From Pycnococcus provasolii (lineage: Eukaryota > Chlorophyta > Pseudoscourfieldiophyceae > Pseudoscourfieldiales > Pycnococcaceae), in assembly GCA_938743325.2 (NCBI GenBank), contig OW568870.1, forward strand, positions 1-64,000: DNA of 64,000 bases, in the 5' to 3' direction. The position numbers and the translations under genes were made by a program. How positions within the stretch are numbered: position 1 is the stretch's first letter; every line of letters starts with the position of its first letter. Positions 27,409-47,627 of the stretch are shown one piece after another. The notes beneath the pieces are model-generated. The model saw only the letters and a list, made by a program, of their open reading frames with translations. It was not told the origin of the DNA and did no database searches.

Positions 27409-27783
27409 ATTGGGAGTGATAGCCACCTGTGATAGCCCCTCGTTTATCCTCGGCGCGTTGGCGAGGGGGATAAGCAGATGAGGGAGCGAGGACCTGCGAG
27501 GAGGCAGCGAAAAGCAAACCCCGAAACTCGTCCGGGTTTTGGGTTGGTTGTTTTCCTCCGGGGGATTTTATCCCAGTCATACCATGGCAGATACCCAGGC
27601 TTACTACCGTACATACCGGGTAAGTTTACTGTAAGTACTGTACGAAGTTACGAACCCGTCCGCAAGTCGGCGTCCCAGATCCGACGACTCGAGTCAACCT
27701 CACGCCTATTCCTAATACTTTTTAGGCGCCATACCACGCCGCTTTCAGCTCGCACGCGGCGGGCGGAGAGACGAACGGGAGCA

Positions 27784-29442
27784 ATGCCCACGGAGACGGT
27801 GAGCTATGAGGAGTTCGCGTTCGGTCTTCAGCAAGCGTATGGGCAGAGACTCAAAGAAAACAAACGAAACACTACTGCAAGACGCAACCAACCAAAACCA
27901 GACCTTCTCGAAAAGCTAGCTCGCGTCAACGCATACCTCGACGGCGACTTTGAAAGAGACGTGGACGAGGAGGAGTCTATAGGCGACGCCATAGCAGAGG
28001 CGGAGGCAAGCGTAAGAAGAGCGCTACTGACTTCAGCGGAGGCACCACGCGTGACAACGACGGCGCTGGCTGACGAAAGATTGCCTGACGAACAGCAAGA
28101 GACACGGAAGTTGGCGGCTGCGGCTGTGACGTTGCAAGCTGCGGTGCGCGGCCGACTCGCGCGCGTCGAGGCGAGCCACGTGCGTGCCGAGCTGGAAAAT
28201 ATCCGGGCACACCAGGCATTTGCCCGTAATGTGGCAGCTACAAATCTGCAGGCTGCGGTGCGCGGCCGACTCGCGCGCAACGAGGCGAGCATCCTGCGCG
28301 CGGAGATTGCGACGCTCAAGGCTCGCGAGTGCGCGGCGGTGACGGTCCAGGCTGCGGTGCGCGGTCGACTCGCGCGCGTCGAGGCGAACCACATGCGCGC
28401 GGAGACCGCGATGCTCAAGGCTCTCAGATCCGCGGCTGCTGTGACGATCCAGAGCACGTTCCGGGGTCATCTTATTCGTATGAAGACCAAGTCTATCCGC
28501 AAGACGAATGCTCTCAAGGAAGCTGCGTGTGTGCGCATCCAAGCAGCATTCCGCGGCTTGCTTGACCGCCGAAAGGTTAAAATGGAACATGCGGCGGCAG
28601 TACGCCTTCAGTCTGCTGTGCGAGGATTCCATGTGCGTGCAGAGTTCACCGCACTTCGTTCTTCACGTGCGAAGACGGCGCAAGCCAGCACCTTGTTGCA
28701 AAGTGCCGCGCGTGGTTTCTTGGTGCGCCGCTTGCTGACACGACAGAGAAACGCCGCTCACCAAATCCAGGCGCGCGTGCGCGGTCATGTGGCTCGATTC
28801 GAAGTGGCACGCATGCGTGCCGAGATCGCAGGGCTTCGCGAGACGTCTGCGATTTCGATCCAGGCAGCGGTGCGCAGACGCAAGGCCCAACTCGAGGCGG
28901 CACGCATGCGCGCCGAGCTCGCAGGGTTGCGCGAGACGTCGGCAGTCTCGATCCAGGCGGCGATGCGCGGTCGACTTGCGCGGTTGGAGTTAAGTCGAAT
29001 GCGGCAAGCTGAGGCTGCAGCTGCAAGGAAAAGTGCTGCTGTGCAGTTGGCTGTTCGCTCTCGGCTACCTCGCGTCGAGGCGAGTCGTGCGCCTCCTCCC
29101 GTTGAACGTGCCGTGGGTGTCGTGCGTGAGTTGGCGGCAATCCGTGTGCCACGCATGGCTTCACGATCTGCTGCACCACGCGGCAGAAACGCTACTAGCA
29201 CTGCTCAGCCGCAACTTAGGTTGCGTCCGCCTACGGCTGCGCGCTTCGATGCCGTGCCGGCGGCACAGTGGGCGCCGCATTGGAACGCGCGCGTAACTAG
29301 CGCCCGAACTCGATCGGGCCTACCGCGCGTGGTTGCTCGAGCTTACGAGCGAGCTGTACATGTACAACACCAGCAAGAGCTCATGGTTGGCTCGGTGGCT
29401 CTTGGTGCGCGCATTCACTCCGCGCGCGGCCGCACTTTGTGA
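27784..29442 (+). CDS. IQ-motif array protein (calmodulin-binding)
   Basis: A 552-residue basic protein. From about residue 115 it carries ten IQ motifs plus one worn copy, spaced 23 to 35 residues: VTLQAAVRGRLARVEA, TNLQAAVRGRLARNEA, VTVQAAVRGRLARVEA, VTIQSTFRGHLIRMKT, VRIQAAFRGLLDRRKV, VRLQSAVRGFHVRAEF, TLLQSAARGFLVRRLL, HQIQARVRGHVARFEV, ISIQAAVRRRKAQLEA, VSIQAAMRGRLARLEL. Each should bind calmodulin or a related light chain. Several repeats are almost the same in DNA, pointing to recent tandem growth. There is no motor or calponin domain, so it is not a full myosin or ASPM. The upstream 600 bp holds the start regions of this gene only. Confidence 0.85.
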   Translation: MPTETVSYEEFAFGLQQAYGQRLKENKRNTTARRNQPKPDLLEKLARVNAYLDGDFERDVDEEESIGDAIAEAEASVRRALLTSAEAPRVTTTALADERLPDEQQETRKLAAAAVTLQAAVRGRLARVEASHVRAELENIRAHQAFARNVAATNLQAAVRGRLARNEASILRAEIATLKARECAAVTVQAAVRGRLARVEANHMRAETAMLKALRSAAAVTIQSTFRGHLIRMKTKSIRKTNALKEAACVRIQAAFRGLLDRRKVKMEHAAAVRLQSAVRGFHVRAEFTALRSSRAKTAQASTLLQSAARGFLVRRLLTRQRNAAHQIQARVRGHVARFEVARMRAEIAGLRETSAISIQAAVRRRKAQLEAARMRAELAGLRETSAVSIQAAMRGRLARLELSRMRQAEAAAARKSAAVQLAVRSRLPRVEASRAPPPVERAVGVVRELAAIRVPRMASRSAAPRGRNATSTAQPQLRLRPPTAARFDAVPAAQWAPHWNARVTSARTRSGLPRVVARAYERAVHVQHQQELMVGSVALGARIHSARGRTL

Positions 29443-33712: not shown

Positions 33713-34246
33713 TTACACCTGTATGCTCGGCGTGCTCGGCGGGTATACGAACGGACGCACCATGAGAACGGCGTGTGGCGGATCTATGCGCTTGTAGTAG
33801 TTTTCTATGACGCGCTGCTTGACGAATCCGTACTTTTCGTAGAACTTCACCGCCTCCTCGTTGCTCGTTTGCACGTGCAGGTACGCATCCTTGATGTTTT
33901 CGTCCCCCCACGCCTCCGCCGCCGCCAGGCACTTTGCGATGAGCTTTCCCCCGATTCCCCTATTTCTGTACGGTGCGAGCACGCAGACGGATCCGATGTA
34001 GAGTCGCGCGCCCTGTTCGCCCTCCCCCTCGCTCTTCGACGCCTTTTCGACGCGCGTCGCCACAGCTCCTACGAGAAGGTCGTCGAGGTGCGCGAGAACG
34101 GTAGAGTCGGAGGAGGACTTGACGCAGTCGTCGTAGAAGGAGTTTGGGAACCGCACGGGCAGCACAGCCGCGTTGAGTATGCGCAGTTGCTCGAGTCTCT
34201 TGTAGTGCAGCGGCTCCAGGCTGACGTCGAGGTCGGCGGCGTCCAT
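33713..34246 (-). CDS. NAA50: N-alpha-acetyltransferase 50 (NatE catalytic subunit)
   Basis: A 177-residue GNAT enzyme. It resembles NAA50: LNAAVLPVRFPNSFYDD (the substrate-binding loop with P-V-x-F/Y), LYIGSVCVLAPYRNRGIGGKLI (acetyl-CoA-binding R/Q-x-x-G-x-G/A loop), DAYLHVQTSNEEAVKFYEKYGF and ENYYKRIDPPHAVLM. NAA50 acetylates N-termini starting with Met next to hydrophobic residues and works with NAA10/NAA15. The start is the first in-frame ATG before the domain (MDAADLDVSLEPLHY). It is divergent from the thioredoxin fusion gene across 359 bp. Confidence 0.92.
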   Translation of the reverse strand: MDAADLDVSLEPLHYKRLEQLRILNAAVLPVRFPNSFYDDCVKSSSDSTVLAHLDDLLVGAVATRVEKASKSEGEGEQGARLYIGSVCVLAPYRNRGIGGKLIAKCLAAAEAWGDENIKDAYLHVQTSNEEAVKFYEKYGFVKQRVIENYYKRIDPPHAVLMVRPFVYPPSTPSIQV

Positions 34247-34364
34247 TTCGCGCGACGTGAGAGAACCAAGGTAAAGTAAAGGGGAGGGAGGAGGCGAGAA
34301 AAGGGGAAGGCGGAAAGTCCAAAGGGGAAAGGCGCGACCCAGACGGGATGGATGGCGGGAGCCC

Positions 34365-34377
34365 CAAACCCTAACTA
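34365..34377. promoter_or_regulatory. Telo-box-like element, NAA50 / thioredoxin-fusion promoter
   Basis: CAAACCCTAACTA in the 359-bp divergent promoter. Confidence 0.55.
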
Positions 34378-34605
34378 ACATGTAATTCGGGGTTCGCAGG
34401 AGGAGGGCTAACATGTTGATCCAGCGTTGTGTTCTTGACCTCTTGTTTCGTCTCCGAGTAGATTCTTCTTCTTCGGGGCCCCTTGCAGCCGTCCCGCCAA
34501 CATCCCACTCACCCCCTCGCCTCCCCGCACCACCACCACCACCACCACGCGGCAGCAGATCACTACACACGCGCGCGGGGGTGAGAGAAATAAATAGATA
34601 AAGGC

Positions 34606-36972
34606 ATGATGCTACTCCAGCGCGTCACGCGCACGCAACGCAGACCACGCACGTCCACCTCGCGGCCTCGCACCTCGCAGCGATCAAGACGGTGCGCCAC
34701 GACCACGGCGGAGCAAACGACGGAGCAAACGTGGAAGATCAAGTACCTCTACGACGGCGCTTGTCCGGTGTGCAGGGCGCTCAAAAAAACGCTCGAGGAA
34801 AGGAAGGGATCGGAACAGATCGCTTTCGTCGACATATCCTCGCCCAGGTACGACCCGGCGGAGAACGCTGACGTGACGTTCGACGACGCGATGGCCACGA
34901 TACACGTCGTCGAACGCGAAGGAAACGCAATCACGACGGGACTCGACGCGCTGCAGAAGCTCTTCGACGTCGTCGGACTCGGGTGGGCGTTCAAGCTCGC
35001 GCAAATACCGCCGTTCGGCGCGATTGCGGCACTCCTGTACAAGCTCGTGTCAAAAAACAGAAACGCGCTCGGCAGCTCGGGGGAGGCGCTCGGCAGCTTG
35101 CTCGCGGTGGGGCGAGCGTCGCTCGAGCTGCGGGGAGAGAAGGCAACCTGCGCAGAGGACGAAGAGTGCCGCGACGTGAGCGCAATGGACGACATAGCGC
35201 CAAGCTCGGAGGAAGGTCCGTCGAAGTCGGCGGAGGTGGAAATCACGCGCTCGACGTCGGAAGACGGCGACATGCAACAAGGCAACGGCGCGCCGGAGCA
35301 ACAGCTCGGAAGCAGGCCGGAAGTGCTTGCAGCGTACACGCAGAGCTCGGGCGTGCTTCGCGGCGCTATCGTGGACACGCGCACGGGTGAGTTACGCGGC
35401 TCGGTGGAAGAGGTGGCGATGGACGACGAAGGTCGCGAGTGCCTGGATCTGAACGTCTATGCGAATGGCCTCAGAACGCTCGTCCAGGAAACGAAATGGC
35501 CCGGCGACATCGCGATTGCACTGCCTGGACTTCTCGGCCGTGGCGAGGCGATGCGTGAGGCACCCGGAGCCCCACCCGTGGACCTGGGGGCGCGAACGAC
35601 ATTCCGCGAGCTCGAGTCGACGGAGAGCGCGTCCCCGCTGGTGCAGCGCCGCGAGCGCGCGGAGACGGAGGAGTGGCTGCGTAGAGCCGTCGGTCGCGAC
35701 GTTGTCGTGCTCACTTCCGCTGAGGCACATGCCTACGGGCACGCGGAAGAGGCATACGAACGAAGCATGGAGCGTTTATGTCAGCCCGAGCGGGAGGCGT
35801 CATCTGAGCAAGAGAACCGTGGCGAGATTGATGATGTCTCTGTCTCATCAAGCATTCGCACCGAGAAACGGATACGGTCGCCGCTGTGCGTGACGGTGAC
35901 GGCCACAACCGAAGCCATTCACGTTGCCATCTTTCGCGATGGCGTGACAATGCGCACGGCGGACTTGCGCGGTGCATCGCTTGGCTTCTGGAACCTGCCG
36001 GTTTGGTCATCGTCGCCTCGCCCGAGCAAGGACACGCCCGCAGAGGATGATGCGTGGAAAAGGTGGGCGGAGCGCGTGCAGCACTACCTCGAGCGCATTG
36101 ACGCCACCATTCTCGAGCAGGGATTTCTGGTGGACGAATACATGATTGCAGGAAGCGCGACGGAGACCTTCAAGCTTTGGGCGAAGCACATTCCTAAGAG
36201 CGCGCTCTCCGCGCCTCTTCTCGAGGGACCGTCGCCAAGATACGATGGCCTTCGGGGCACAGGCATCGGTGGTGGCTTCCAGTACCGCTACAGGGACGAT
36301 GTGGCTTTGGTTCGGTCCGCGATTGGCGAGGCGCTCGGTGAGGCGCCGCAGCTCGTGCCAATTGATGAGCTGCGTGGCCTGTTCGACCGCTTCTGCGATG
36401 AAGGCGAGTCGGACATGGGCCTGGAGGAGTTTGTTCGGCTCGTGCGTGCCCTTGGTGTGCGAATGCCCGACGACGAAATCAGGGAGCTCGTCAGCGACGT
36501 TGACAGCATGTGCCTTGACCGTGTGACGTTCGACGAATTTCAGCAATGGTGGCTCACGGTAATTGGCCAGGCTGCGGAGGTGCTGCACACCGAGGATGCC
36601 TTTGACCAGGTTCTACGCGAGGAATCCACCGGGAACCGCGTCGTTATCCTGATGGTTGGATTCACGACGTGCAAGCCTTGCAAGAAGTTCCTGCCCTTCT
36701 TCGAGAAGTGGGCGGCGGACAACGAGCGCGTCGCTCGCTGCGTGCGTGTGTACGCCAACGAGAATGGGAGCACGGTGCATTTGGCAAGAGATCGGCTGAA
36801 GATTCGGTCGACGCCAACATTCTTCATCTTCAAGGACGGAGACCGGATTGTGCACACTCACACCGGCATTTCCGAGGAGAAGTTTGCCGACGGCGTGGAT
36901 GAGGCGCTGGGCCTGATTCCCGAGGGATCGTACGCCGAGAAGTGGCAGGCGCCCACGAGCACGATTGGTTGA
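34606..36972 (+). CDS. DCC domain / ROK-like / EF-hand-like / thioredoxin fusion protein
   Basis: An intronless 788-residue protein with an arginine/threonine-rich leader (1-40) fit for plastid or mitochondrial import. Residues 46-150 are a DCC (DUF393) thiol oxidoreductase domain with YLYDGACPVCRAL (cysteines 53 and 56). Residues about 246-560 resemble a polyphosphate-glucokinase-type ROK/actin-fold domain: GVLRGAIVDTRTGEL, GDIAIALPGLLGRG, and DEYMIAGSATETFKLWAKHIP. The catalytic NDAD is replaced by TSAE and the GTG phosphate loop is lost, so it is probably an inactive kinase fold. Residues 586-650 are two worn EF-hands. Residues 665-770 are a thioredoxin domain with CKPC (689-692) and the cis-proline motif STPTFF. 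Expected role: redox control with a built-in sensor. Function is inference. Confidence 0.85.
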   Translation: MMLLQRVTRTQRRPRTSTSRPRTSQRSRRCATTTAEQTTEQTWKIKYLYDGACPVCRALKKTLEERKGSEQIAFVDISSPRYDPAENADVTFDDAMATIHVVEREGNAITTGLDALQKLFDVVGLGWAFKLAQIPPFGAIAALLYKLVSKNRNALGSSGEALGSLLAVGRASLELRGEKATCAEDEECRDVSAMDDIAPSSEEGPSKSAEVEITRSTSEDGDMQQGNGAPEQQLGSRPEVLAAYTQSSGVLRGAIVDTRTGELRGSVEEVAMDDEGRECLDLNVYANGLRTLVQETKWPGDIAIALPGLLGRGEAMREAPGAPPVDLGARTTFRELESTESASPLVQRRERAETEEWLRRAVGRDVVVLTSAEAHAYGHAEEAYERSMERLCQPEREASSEQENRGEIDDVSVSSSIRTEKRIRSPLCVTVTATTEAIHVAIFRDGVTMRTADLRGASLGFWNLPVWSSSPRPSKDTPAEDDAWKRWAERVQHYLERIDATILEQGFLVDEYMIAGSATETFKLWAKHIPKSALSAPLLEGPSPRYDGLRGTGIGGGFQYRYRDDVALVRSAIGEALGEAPQLVPIDELRGLFDRFCDEGESDMGLEEFVRLVRALGVRMPDDEIRELVSDVDSMCLDRVTFDEFQQWWLTVIGQAAEVLHTEDAFDQVLREESTGNRVVILMVGFTTCKPCKKFLPFFEKWAADNERVARCVRVYANENGSTVHLARDRLKIRSTPTFFIFKDGDRIVHTHTGISEEKFADGVDEALGLIPEGSYAEKWQAPTSTIG

Positions 36973-37178: not shown

Positions 37179-37230
37179 TAGGGTTAGGGTTAGGGTTAGG
37201 GTTAGGGTTCGGATTAGGGTTTGGGTTCGG
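37179..37230. promoter_or_regulatory. Interstitial telomere-like array, TAGGGT
   Basis: Four perfect TTAGGG units then three variants (TTCGGA, TTAGGG, TTTGGG) about 100 bp before the start of the histone-fold gene. It is on the opposite strand orientation to the chromosome-end array. Confidence 0.8.
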
Positions 37231-46609: not shown

Positions 46610-47231
46610 TTACGAGAAGATGTTCACGCCGTTTTTGATGTGCTCGCCGAGGCAGACAAGCGGGCCCTTGCCCGTGTAGTACGTCTGCGCTGCAATGCCA
46701 AGAATGGCAACCATGGCGAGACGGCCGTTCGCGATCTCCTTCTTTTGGAGCTCGAGGAACTTTTTCTCATCCTTTGCGAAGTTCATGGGGTCAAACCACT
46801 TGCCGCCGGGGTATCCCACGCCCTTCTCGCCAACCGTGTAGTTGCCGAAGATGGGGTCCTCGTTGACGCTTCCCGGGTACTGGATGTCAATCCAGCGGCG
46901 GTACTCCGCCCACGACATGAAAAGCAGCTGCGAGGTGAAGAGCGTGAAGGCGTCCGTGAAGTATGACTCCTTGCCCGCGTCAGCCCACATGGGCAGTCCG
47001 AGCAGGTCCGGCACGCACGTGCCGACAACTCCGAGCATGGCCCAGCGGCAGTGCTGCAGCTCCGCCTGACGGTTCCACGCGAGTCCCTTGTCCCACGATC
47101 CGAGGCTGAGCGGGTCGAAGCCGTAGTCGCACGGCATGCTTCCGTCCAGGTGGGCAGGCGGCGTCTGGCCCGGGTAGAACACAGGGCGGTCCGTCGCGCG
47201 CATCGACACGTTGCGAGGGGTTGCTATATAG

Positions 47232-47278
<47 letters not shown>

Positions 47279-47627
47279 GCTTGTGTGTGAGCGCTGGTTG
47301 CCACCTGTATTTTCAAGCAAGAAGAACCTCCGATCTCCACCCGACCACGCCAACCAAGGCAACATCGTCACCAGTAAAGGTGAACGTCGTGGAAGCGGTG
47401 CACGCCTTGCTTAGGCATGAGCTTGGCGACGTCCTTTCTGATCACAAACACGTGCGGGTAACTACACCACCCCAAGACAAGAAAGCAAGTGCACCATACG
47501 ACAACAACTCTCTCAATATCTCTTTCTCCGCGGACGTTGACTGCTAAATAAGAAAAGAGCTCTTTTCTTGACGTGACGTACCCTTGAGCGCACGCACACT
47601 CCTGACACTGTTGCTGAGCGACATCAT
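46610..47627 (-). CDS. Chlorophyll a/b-binding protein, Lhca-type, two exons
   Basis: Exon 1 is 47627-47582 (MMSLSNSVRSVRALK) and exon 2 is 47223-46610. The 358-bp intron has a GTACGT donor, and its 3' end is a (CA)n microsatellite followed by TATATAG. Joining gives ALKATPRNVSMRATDRP, a typical transit-peptide end and mature start. The 219-residue product has the three-helix antenna fold: helix B AELQHCRWAMLGVVGT (E..HCRWAM), a middle helix near FTSQLLFMSWAEYRRW, and helix A KKEIANGRLAMVAILG (E..NGRLAM). The N-terminal FYPGQTPPAHLDGSMPCDYGFDPLSLG is typical of photosystem I antenna (Lhca) proteins. It acts in the thylakoid membrane. A single-exon reading would start inside the CA repeat and lack a transit peptide. 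Confidence 0.9.
47234..47276. repeat. (TG/CA)n microsatellite in Lhca intron
   Basis: About 20 TG dinucleotides on plus, CA on the transcribed strand, located 10 bp from the 3' splice site. It replaces the usual pyrimidine tract. Confidence 0.9.

Follow-up and report, generated by a model that had tools for sequence, protein, structure and literature searches.

A single frame joins four domains

The gene studied here occupies positions 34606 to 36972 of the forward strand of the window, i.e., of the whole stretch of 64,000 nucleotides that was analysed. It is a single unbroken frame of 788 codons, from the ATG at 34606 to the stop at 36972, devoid of internal stops and frameshifts. Its modules succeed each other in the order leader, DCC1-like domain (CPVC), middle domain of 340 residues, EF-hand pair, and thioredoxin (CKPC), as an earlier sequence-only reading of this DNA had described (Table 1). 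The third-position G+C content is coding-like in all segments (0.80 in the DCC domain, 0.76 in the linker, 0.71 in the middle domain, 0.73 in the EF-hand pair, and 0.77 in the thioredoxin). This composition, together with the Pfam and NCBIfam matches, led us to reject the hypothesis of a chance open frame. The leader contains 10 Arg, 11 Thr, and 4 Ser, and its earliest acidic residue is at position 36; it looks like an organelle transit peptide, from which we infer targeting.

Table 1. Features of the gene. Positions are those of the window, residues those of the encoded protein.
Feature	Residues	Positions	Strand	Basis
Leader	1-45	34606..34740	+	Sequence, composition
DCC1-like thiol-disulfide oxidoreductase domain	48-155	34747..35070	+	Pfam PF04134; genome search, same coordinates
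CPVC, dithiol centre of the DCC domain	53-56	34762..34773	+	Sequence
CAEDEEC, shortly after the DCC domain	182-188	35149..35169	+	Alignment
Acidic low-complexity linker	190-236	35173..35313	+	Sequence; coding-like codon-position composition
ROK/polyphosphate-glucokinase-like pseudokinase domain	236-575	35311..36330	+	NCBIfam PolPhglucPhase; hhalign
Worn phosphate-1 region VLAAYTQSSGVLRGAIVD (bacterial relative: VLGIDIGGTGIKGAPVD)	240-257	35323..35376	+	Alignment
TSAEA (bacterial relatives: NDADA)	370-374	35713..35727	+	Sequence, alignment
Worn phosphate-2 region CVTVTATTEAIHVAIFRDG (relatives: TLGTGIG)	428-446	35887..35943	+	hhalign
AWKRWAERVQHYL, kept counterpart of polyphosphate-glucokinase-type SWKKWGKRVDRYL	483-495	36052..36090	+	hmmsearch, hhalign, alignment
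EF-hand-like pair; loops CDEGESDMGLEE (597-608) and DSMCLDRVTFDE (633-644)	586-649	36361..36552	+	Pfam EF-hand_7; sequence
Calredoxin-type thioredoxin domain	660-768	36583..36909	+	Pfam Thioredoxin; PDB match 5e37; tree
CKPC, thioredoxin active site	689-692	36670..36681	+	Sequence
NEN, aligned with calredoxin Asn267-Ala268-Asn269 (link to the calcium domain)	718-720	36757..36765	+	Alignment

The N-terminal domain matches the DCC1-like model over its full length, well above the cut-off (E 2.8e-19, 70.8 bits versus 27.8), and has the expected CxxC, which places it among the DCC1-like thiol-disulfide oxidoreductases (PF04134), as first proposed. The genome has five DCC matches, including this one. 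The other four also have a CxxC at the position of CPVC in the alignment (CPLC, CPMC, CALC, and CMLC), but they lie in separate short frames of 188 to 275 aa, whereas the window domain is fused to further domains. With a stand-alone DCC protein encoded on contig C40 it shares 35% identity. Another DCC protein, of 205 aa (contig C2, L005/L013), has a shortened domain followed by CEDEEC, similar to the CAEDEEC found at the same place in the window protein; these motifs are perhaps a second cysteine pair or a metal site.

The surroundings of the gene provide some context on the genome. A GNAT acetyltransferase gene (33713-34570, reverse strand) lies head to head with the window gene, and the upstream region they share is at most short. 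A frame of 654 aa at 27478-29442 (forward strand) has many IQ calmodulin-binding motifs (E 3.1e-36) and overlies DNA repeats of approximately 99 and 93 bases. The gene at 46610-47371 (reverse strand) encodes a light-harvesting protein, whose best PDB matches are the LHCI chains of 9vfj, followed by Lhca2-type chlorophyll a-b binding proteins; these matches indicate that the plastid is of the green type. Contig C31 has 12 light-harvesting matches of equal score and model range, on both strands and in two clusters (133072-142609 and 360395-366434). Judging from these matches, the array arose by recent multiplication or was homogenized by gene conversion.

At the beginning of the window lies a (CCCTAA)n telomere (positions 1-298), whose 6-base unit differs from the 7-base unit CCCTAAA reported for Mantoniella tinhauana, of the Mamiellophyceae (PMC11106453). 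The alga therefore probably lies outside the Mamiellophyceae, or departs from them in this respect. A short TTAGGG array of about eight copies is found at 37179-37227, approximately 200 bases downstream of the gene. Runs of four TTAGGG copies occur 1909 times in the forward and 1897 times in the reverse orientation across the genome (0 in the control read backward), and many of those on contig C1 are distant from the contig ends. Short interstitial telomere-like arrays thus seem scattered across the genome.

The thioredoxin domain belongs with calredoxin

The C-terminal domain matches the Pfam Thioredoxin model above its cut-off (residues 661-764, E 2.9e-8) and has the CKPC active site, in agreement with the initial description. 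The best PDB match of the window protein is 5e37, the calredoxin (CRX) of Chlamydomonas reinhardtii (E 1e-8). We inferred a tree of 36 rows that includes 30 other thioredoxin domains of the same genome (which has 55 model matches), the four domains of interest, 5e37, and TrxA of E. coli; six short fragments, one duplicate, and 14 of the 55 matches were left out. The four domains of interest are those of the window gene and of genes on contigs C14, C8, and C16, which we call by their contigs. They form one group with 5e37 with moderate support (94/86), within which the placement of the window copy is weak (83/52).

Residues of functional relevance in calredoxin are consistent with this grouping. 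Thr236, Asn267, and Asn269 are reported to be part of a network between the disulfide and the Ca2+ site (PMC4911631). The counterparts of Thr236, Lys242, Asn267, and Asn269 are T, K, N, and N in the window copy, and that of Lys263 is Arg; Lys242 says little, as it is common among thioredoxins. Thr236, Asn267, and Asn269 are all kept in the window copy, C14, C16, and 5e37 (in C14 the counterpart of Thr236 was read directly from the frame, since the cut domain lacks the position). C8 has none of the three. They occur together in none of the 36 other thioredoxin rows, and both Asn occur in only one.

The EF-hands of calredoxin are directly followed by its thioredoxin, as in the window protein. 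Hence, the association of an EF-hand pair with a thioredoxin, presented by the sequence-only reading as part of an unfamiliar architecture, is a described one, because the thioredoxin is of the calredoxin type. The two proteins differ in other respects. Calredoxin has four Ca2+-binding EF-hands (PMC4911631) and neither a DCC nor a kinase-like domain, whereas the window protein has both of these domains and a single worn pair in place of the four canonical EF-hands. The last EF-hand ligand is separated from the first thioredoxin Cys by about 45 residues in the window protein versus about 70 in 5e37, and the calredoxin interface may therefore differ.

Two other genes share the core of the protein

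We searched the genome (32.3 Mb, 46 contigs) for further copies. The search with the window protein identified seven places, C14 and C16 among them, while C8 was found with the polyphosphate-glucokinase model. The frames of C14 (717 aa) and C8 (851 aa) encode a leader, a kinase-like domain, an EF-hand region, and a thioredoxin, and lack the DCC domain. The BLASTP alignment of C14 and C8 covers the middle domain (30% identity, E 2e-29). That of the window protein with C14 is restricted to the EF-hands and the thioredoxin (31%, E 1e-22), and that with C8 to the thioredoxin (E 3e-5). C16 is a separate gene for a calredoxin-like protein of 374 aa with four EF-hands (E 2.9e-55 to 5e37).

The core made of pseudokinase, EF-hands, and thioredoxin is thus present in three genes of the genome, and the addition of the DCC domain is found in the window copy only. 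The association of these parts exceeds what is expected by chance, because the composition is coding-like throughout and two other loci repeat the order of the middle domain, EF-hands, and thioredoxin. These sister genes led us to reject a one-off fusion of unrelated parts. With two more genes sharing it and a calredoxin-like gene beside them, the core is no lone curiosity, a point that the earlier description of a single gene had missed.

The middle domain probably derives from a polyphosphate-glucokinase-type protein

The kinship of the middle domain was assessed with profiles. The NCBIfam model PolPhglucPhase matches residues 251-315 (E 3e-5) with 23.9 bits, far below its cut-off of 250 bits. 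It matches the other two genes as well (E 0.039 and 2.3e-4), and no further ROK-type NCBIfam model was listed for any of the three. For comparison, the canonical ROK protein encoded on contig C41 matched 11 NCBIfam models, fructokinase first, and its gene is the only one above the cut-off in a search of the genome with the ROK model. The window locus is absent from the matches of the genome searches with the ROK and PolPhglucPhase models, and the Pfam search of the window protein gave no ROK match. Of the profile searches suggested for each segment, those of the DCC and thioredoxin domains were thus above the cut-offs, that of EF-hand_7 was below, and that of ROK was negative in Pfam. The middle segment has no match among the PDB sequences.

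We then built a profile of bacterial relatives from 199 bacterial genomes, 17 of which had a match at E <=1e-20, and used 16 of these 17 proteins (L089 was left out). Local comparison with hhalign gave a probability of 98.9% over 214 columns for the window copy, C14, and C8 together, and of 96.9% and 97.3% for C14 and C8 alone. The window copy alone obtained 28.0% (score 32.9, 192 columns), which exceeds all 30 shuffles of its middle segment (at most 0.5%, score at most 18.2). Under another setting the values were 99.5% for the three genes, 77.0% for the window copy, and 0.1-0.2% for decoys. In the ROK tree, the window copy is near C14 and C8 with a support of only 22/33 and on a very long branch. 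When the entire protein was modelled from its sequence alone, the mean pLDDT was low (37.1) and the fold gained no support; the order of strands and helices in this model would suit an ASKHA half, which counts for little at such values. Given the hhalign probabilities (96.9-98.9% versus 28.0%), the homology to ROK proteins is firm for the family and weaker for the window copy, for which it builds on colinear weak matches and the shared architecture. The proposed likeness to ROK and polyphosphate glucokinases therefore holds at these two levels. We found no relative in viral contigs with the alignment of the three genes (56 pattern stretches) or with the bacterial polyphosphate-glucokinase-type proteins (78 stretches), nor in prokaryote genomes with the middle domains of C14 and C8 (36 stretches), and phage records gave no match.

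Relative to polyphosphate glucokinase (ROK; NCBIfam NF045942), the three genes together are colinear over the whole middle domain, including a W-K-x-W stretch in the window copy, but the catalytic Asp and the phosphate loops are lost. The bacterial motifs GGTGxK, NDADAAG, TLGTGIG, and GGG correspond to RSHSVK, HTEAAGY, TIGAALG, and TGG in C14, and to RTHSVK, HSEAAAY, TLGRGLG, and TGC in C8. In the window copy they correspond to QSSGVLR, TSAEAHAYG, a stretch that lacks the motif's glycines, and AGS, with an exact registration that varies between alignments; notably, the phosphate-2 stretch CVTVTATTEAIHVAIFRDG is registered differently by MAFFT and hhalign. The catalytic Asp of NDADA is Ser in the TSAEA of the window copy, Thr in C14, and Ser in C8. 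An Asp of the connect-1 motif is believed to be essential (PMC4252912), and we read it as the Asp of NDAD. Because each of the three has a replaced catalytic Asp and worn phosphate loops, we regard these genes as a family of pseudokinases. The loss of catalytic residues noted from the sequence is thereby extended to the sisters, and an active glucokinase is rejected for the window protein by the loss of the Asp in the alignment. In the stretch AWKRWAERVQHYL/SWKKWGKRVDRYL, the two Trp and the first Lys are invariant across five aligned rows.

Most calcium ligands are lost in the window copy

The EF-hands had been described as worn, and the Pfam match agrees (EF-hand_7, residues 605-649, E 2e-4, 22.1 bits, below the cut-off of 30). 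Canonical loops have Asp at position 1 and acidic residues at 3, 5, and 12. At these positions the window protein has C-E-E-E in the first loop and D-M-L-E in the second, and neither is canonical. The first loop is canonical in C14 (DINGDGLLSREE) and near-canonical in C8 (DADGDGGVSAGD), whereas a Cys replaces the first Asp in CDEGESDMGLEE. As for the second loop, it is worn in every one of the three genes. The alignment does not assign their EF-hand pairs to either the first or the second pair of calredoxin. The window copy is thus the only one of the three to have lost the Ca2+ ligands of the first EF-hand, and also the only one with a DCC domain; we conjecture that the loss and the gain are connected. 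Because both loops lack most canonical ligands, a calcium input to this copy is doubtful. Of the regulator initially proposed to link redox, carbohydrate or nucleotide state, and calcium, the two CxxC centres are confirmed, and calcium control of this copy is in doubt.

A probable elaborated calredoxin and its alternatives

These analyses establish the domain order, the homology of the parts, and the loss of the catalytic residues, and they show that the thioredoxin is a member of the calredoxin group. The explanation we favour, with a probability of around 0.6, is that the gene encodes an elaborated calredoxin, made of a pseudokinase of the polyphosphate-glucokinase type of ROK proteins, a pair of EF-hands, and a thioredoxin of the calredoxin type, to which a DCC domain was added at the N-terminus. 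We found no description of this four-part architecture, or of ROK-EF-thioredoxin or DCC-EF-thioredoxin proteins, in the papers searched, with a eukaryote comparison confined to the same genome, which is consistent with the earlier supposition that it is new.

Given its descent from calredoxin, the protein would be expected to reduce dithiols in the plastid, and its likeliest role, judged from its sequence, would be that of a plastid dithiol regulator whose pseudokinase offers a platform for docking or sensing. The leader suggests that the protein would enter the plastid, and it would be insufficient by itself if the plastid were secondary. Deprived of the calcium domain, the thioredoxin of calredoxin shows no activity, and its reduction of PRX1 depends on Ca2+ (PMC4911631); calredoxin is also reported to restrain or control NTRC (PMC10602609). 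By analogy, the thioredoxin of the window protein would reduce disulfides of clients such as 2-Cys peroxiredoxin or those linked to NTRC. The dead kinase would no longer phosphorylate and might, as a platform for docking or ligand sensing, pick the clients or determine how the two dithiol centres are placed relative to each other. Electrons may pass between the DCC domain and the thioredoxin, or both may act on a shared client. Since the EF-hand loops lost most Ca2+ ligands, the window copy would be gated by thiols or not at all, and C14 and C8 may still respond to Ca2+. A broader scenario, which we regard as speculative, is that an ancestral fusion between a polyphosphate-glucokinase-type enzyme and calredoxin gave rise to pseudokinase redox regulators that couple the control of peroxiredoxin and NTRC to the plastid's energy or carbohydrate status, and that in the window copy the calcium input was lost and the DCC domain, a second dithiol centre, replaced calcium gating by gating through thiols.

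The chief rival is a mainly structural role, since redox activity is dispensable in the pairing of TRX z with FLN1. In plant plastids, TRX z and FLN1/FLN2 also pair a thioredoxin with a sugar-kinase-like pseudoenzyme, and redox-inactive variants of TRX z and FLN1 are reported to restore the growth of Arabidopsis mutants (PMC4036507). The thioredoxin and pseudokinase of the window protein could likewise be building parts of a plastid complex, with a minor redox activity, and the loss of both kinase motifs and EF-hand ligands does suggest that several activities were lost. Yet both CxxC centres and the calredoxin-type residues of the thioredoxin are intact. Furthermore, TRX z and the FLN proteins are separate chains and the latter are of the pfkB type (PMC3409070), whereas the window protein is a single chain of the ROK type, which makes this a functional analogy devoid of kinship. 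We therefore consider a structural role improbable, if worth keeping in mind. Slightly less probable still is a sensing role, in line with the sensor suggested by the sequence-only reading. The middle domain would still bind a ligand such as glucose, a sugar phosphate, or polyphosphate and inform the thioredoxin of the state of carbohydrate or phosphate. LPGLL...G and AWKRWAERVQHYL match stretches kept in the bacterial relatives, and a phosphate-3 motif predicted to bind polyphosphate has been described, as have two Trp proposed as essential in the polyphosphate glucokinase of M. tuberculosis (PMC4252912); the kept AWKRWAERVQHYL stretch may be this motif. Nevertheless, each of the three genes shows wear of its own kind in the phosphate-1, catalytic, and phosphate-2 motifs, which rather suggests a relaxed pocket. 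Finally, the absence of the DCC domain from C14 and C8 and the separate location of the four other DCC matches could be taken to mean that this domain and the remainder are distinct genes, or that the linker hides a spliced or misassembled junction. Given the 788 codons without stop or frameshift and the coding-like composition of the linker, this is very improbable.

Implications for plastid thiol control

Calredoxin is described as connecting plastid Ca2+ with the redox control of thiols. An elaborated calredoxin of the kind we favour would work like it but fall outside its definition by four EF-hands, and also outside that of a ROK kinase. Calredoxins are reported from the green algal lineage and some Dinophyceae (PMC10602609). 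Three relatives with a dead kinase would mean that the link between Ca2+ and thiols was elaborated by gene fusion, and, considering TRX z and the FLN proteins, that the pairing of a sugar-kinase pseudoenzyme with a thioredoxin arose more than once in plastids. The three sisters, with and without intact EF-hand loops and with and without a DCC domain, provide a natural comparison of the role of each input.
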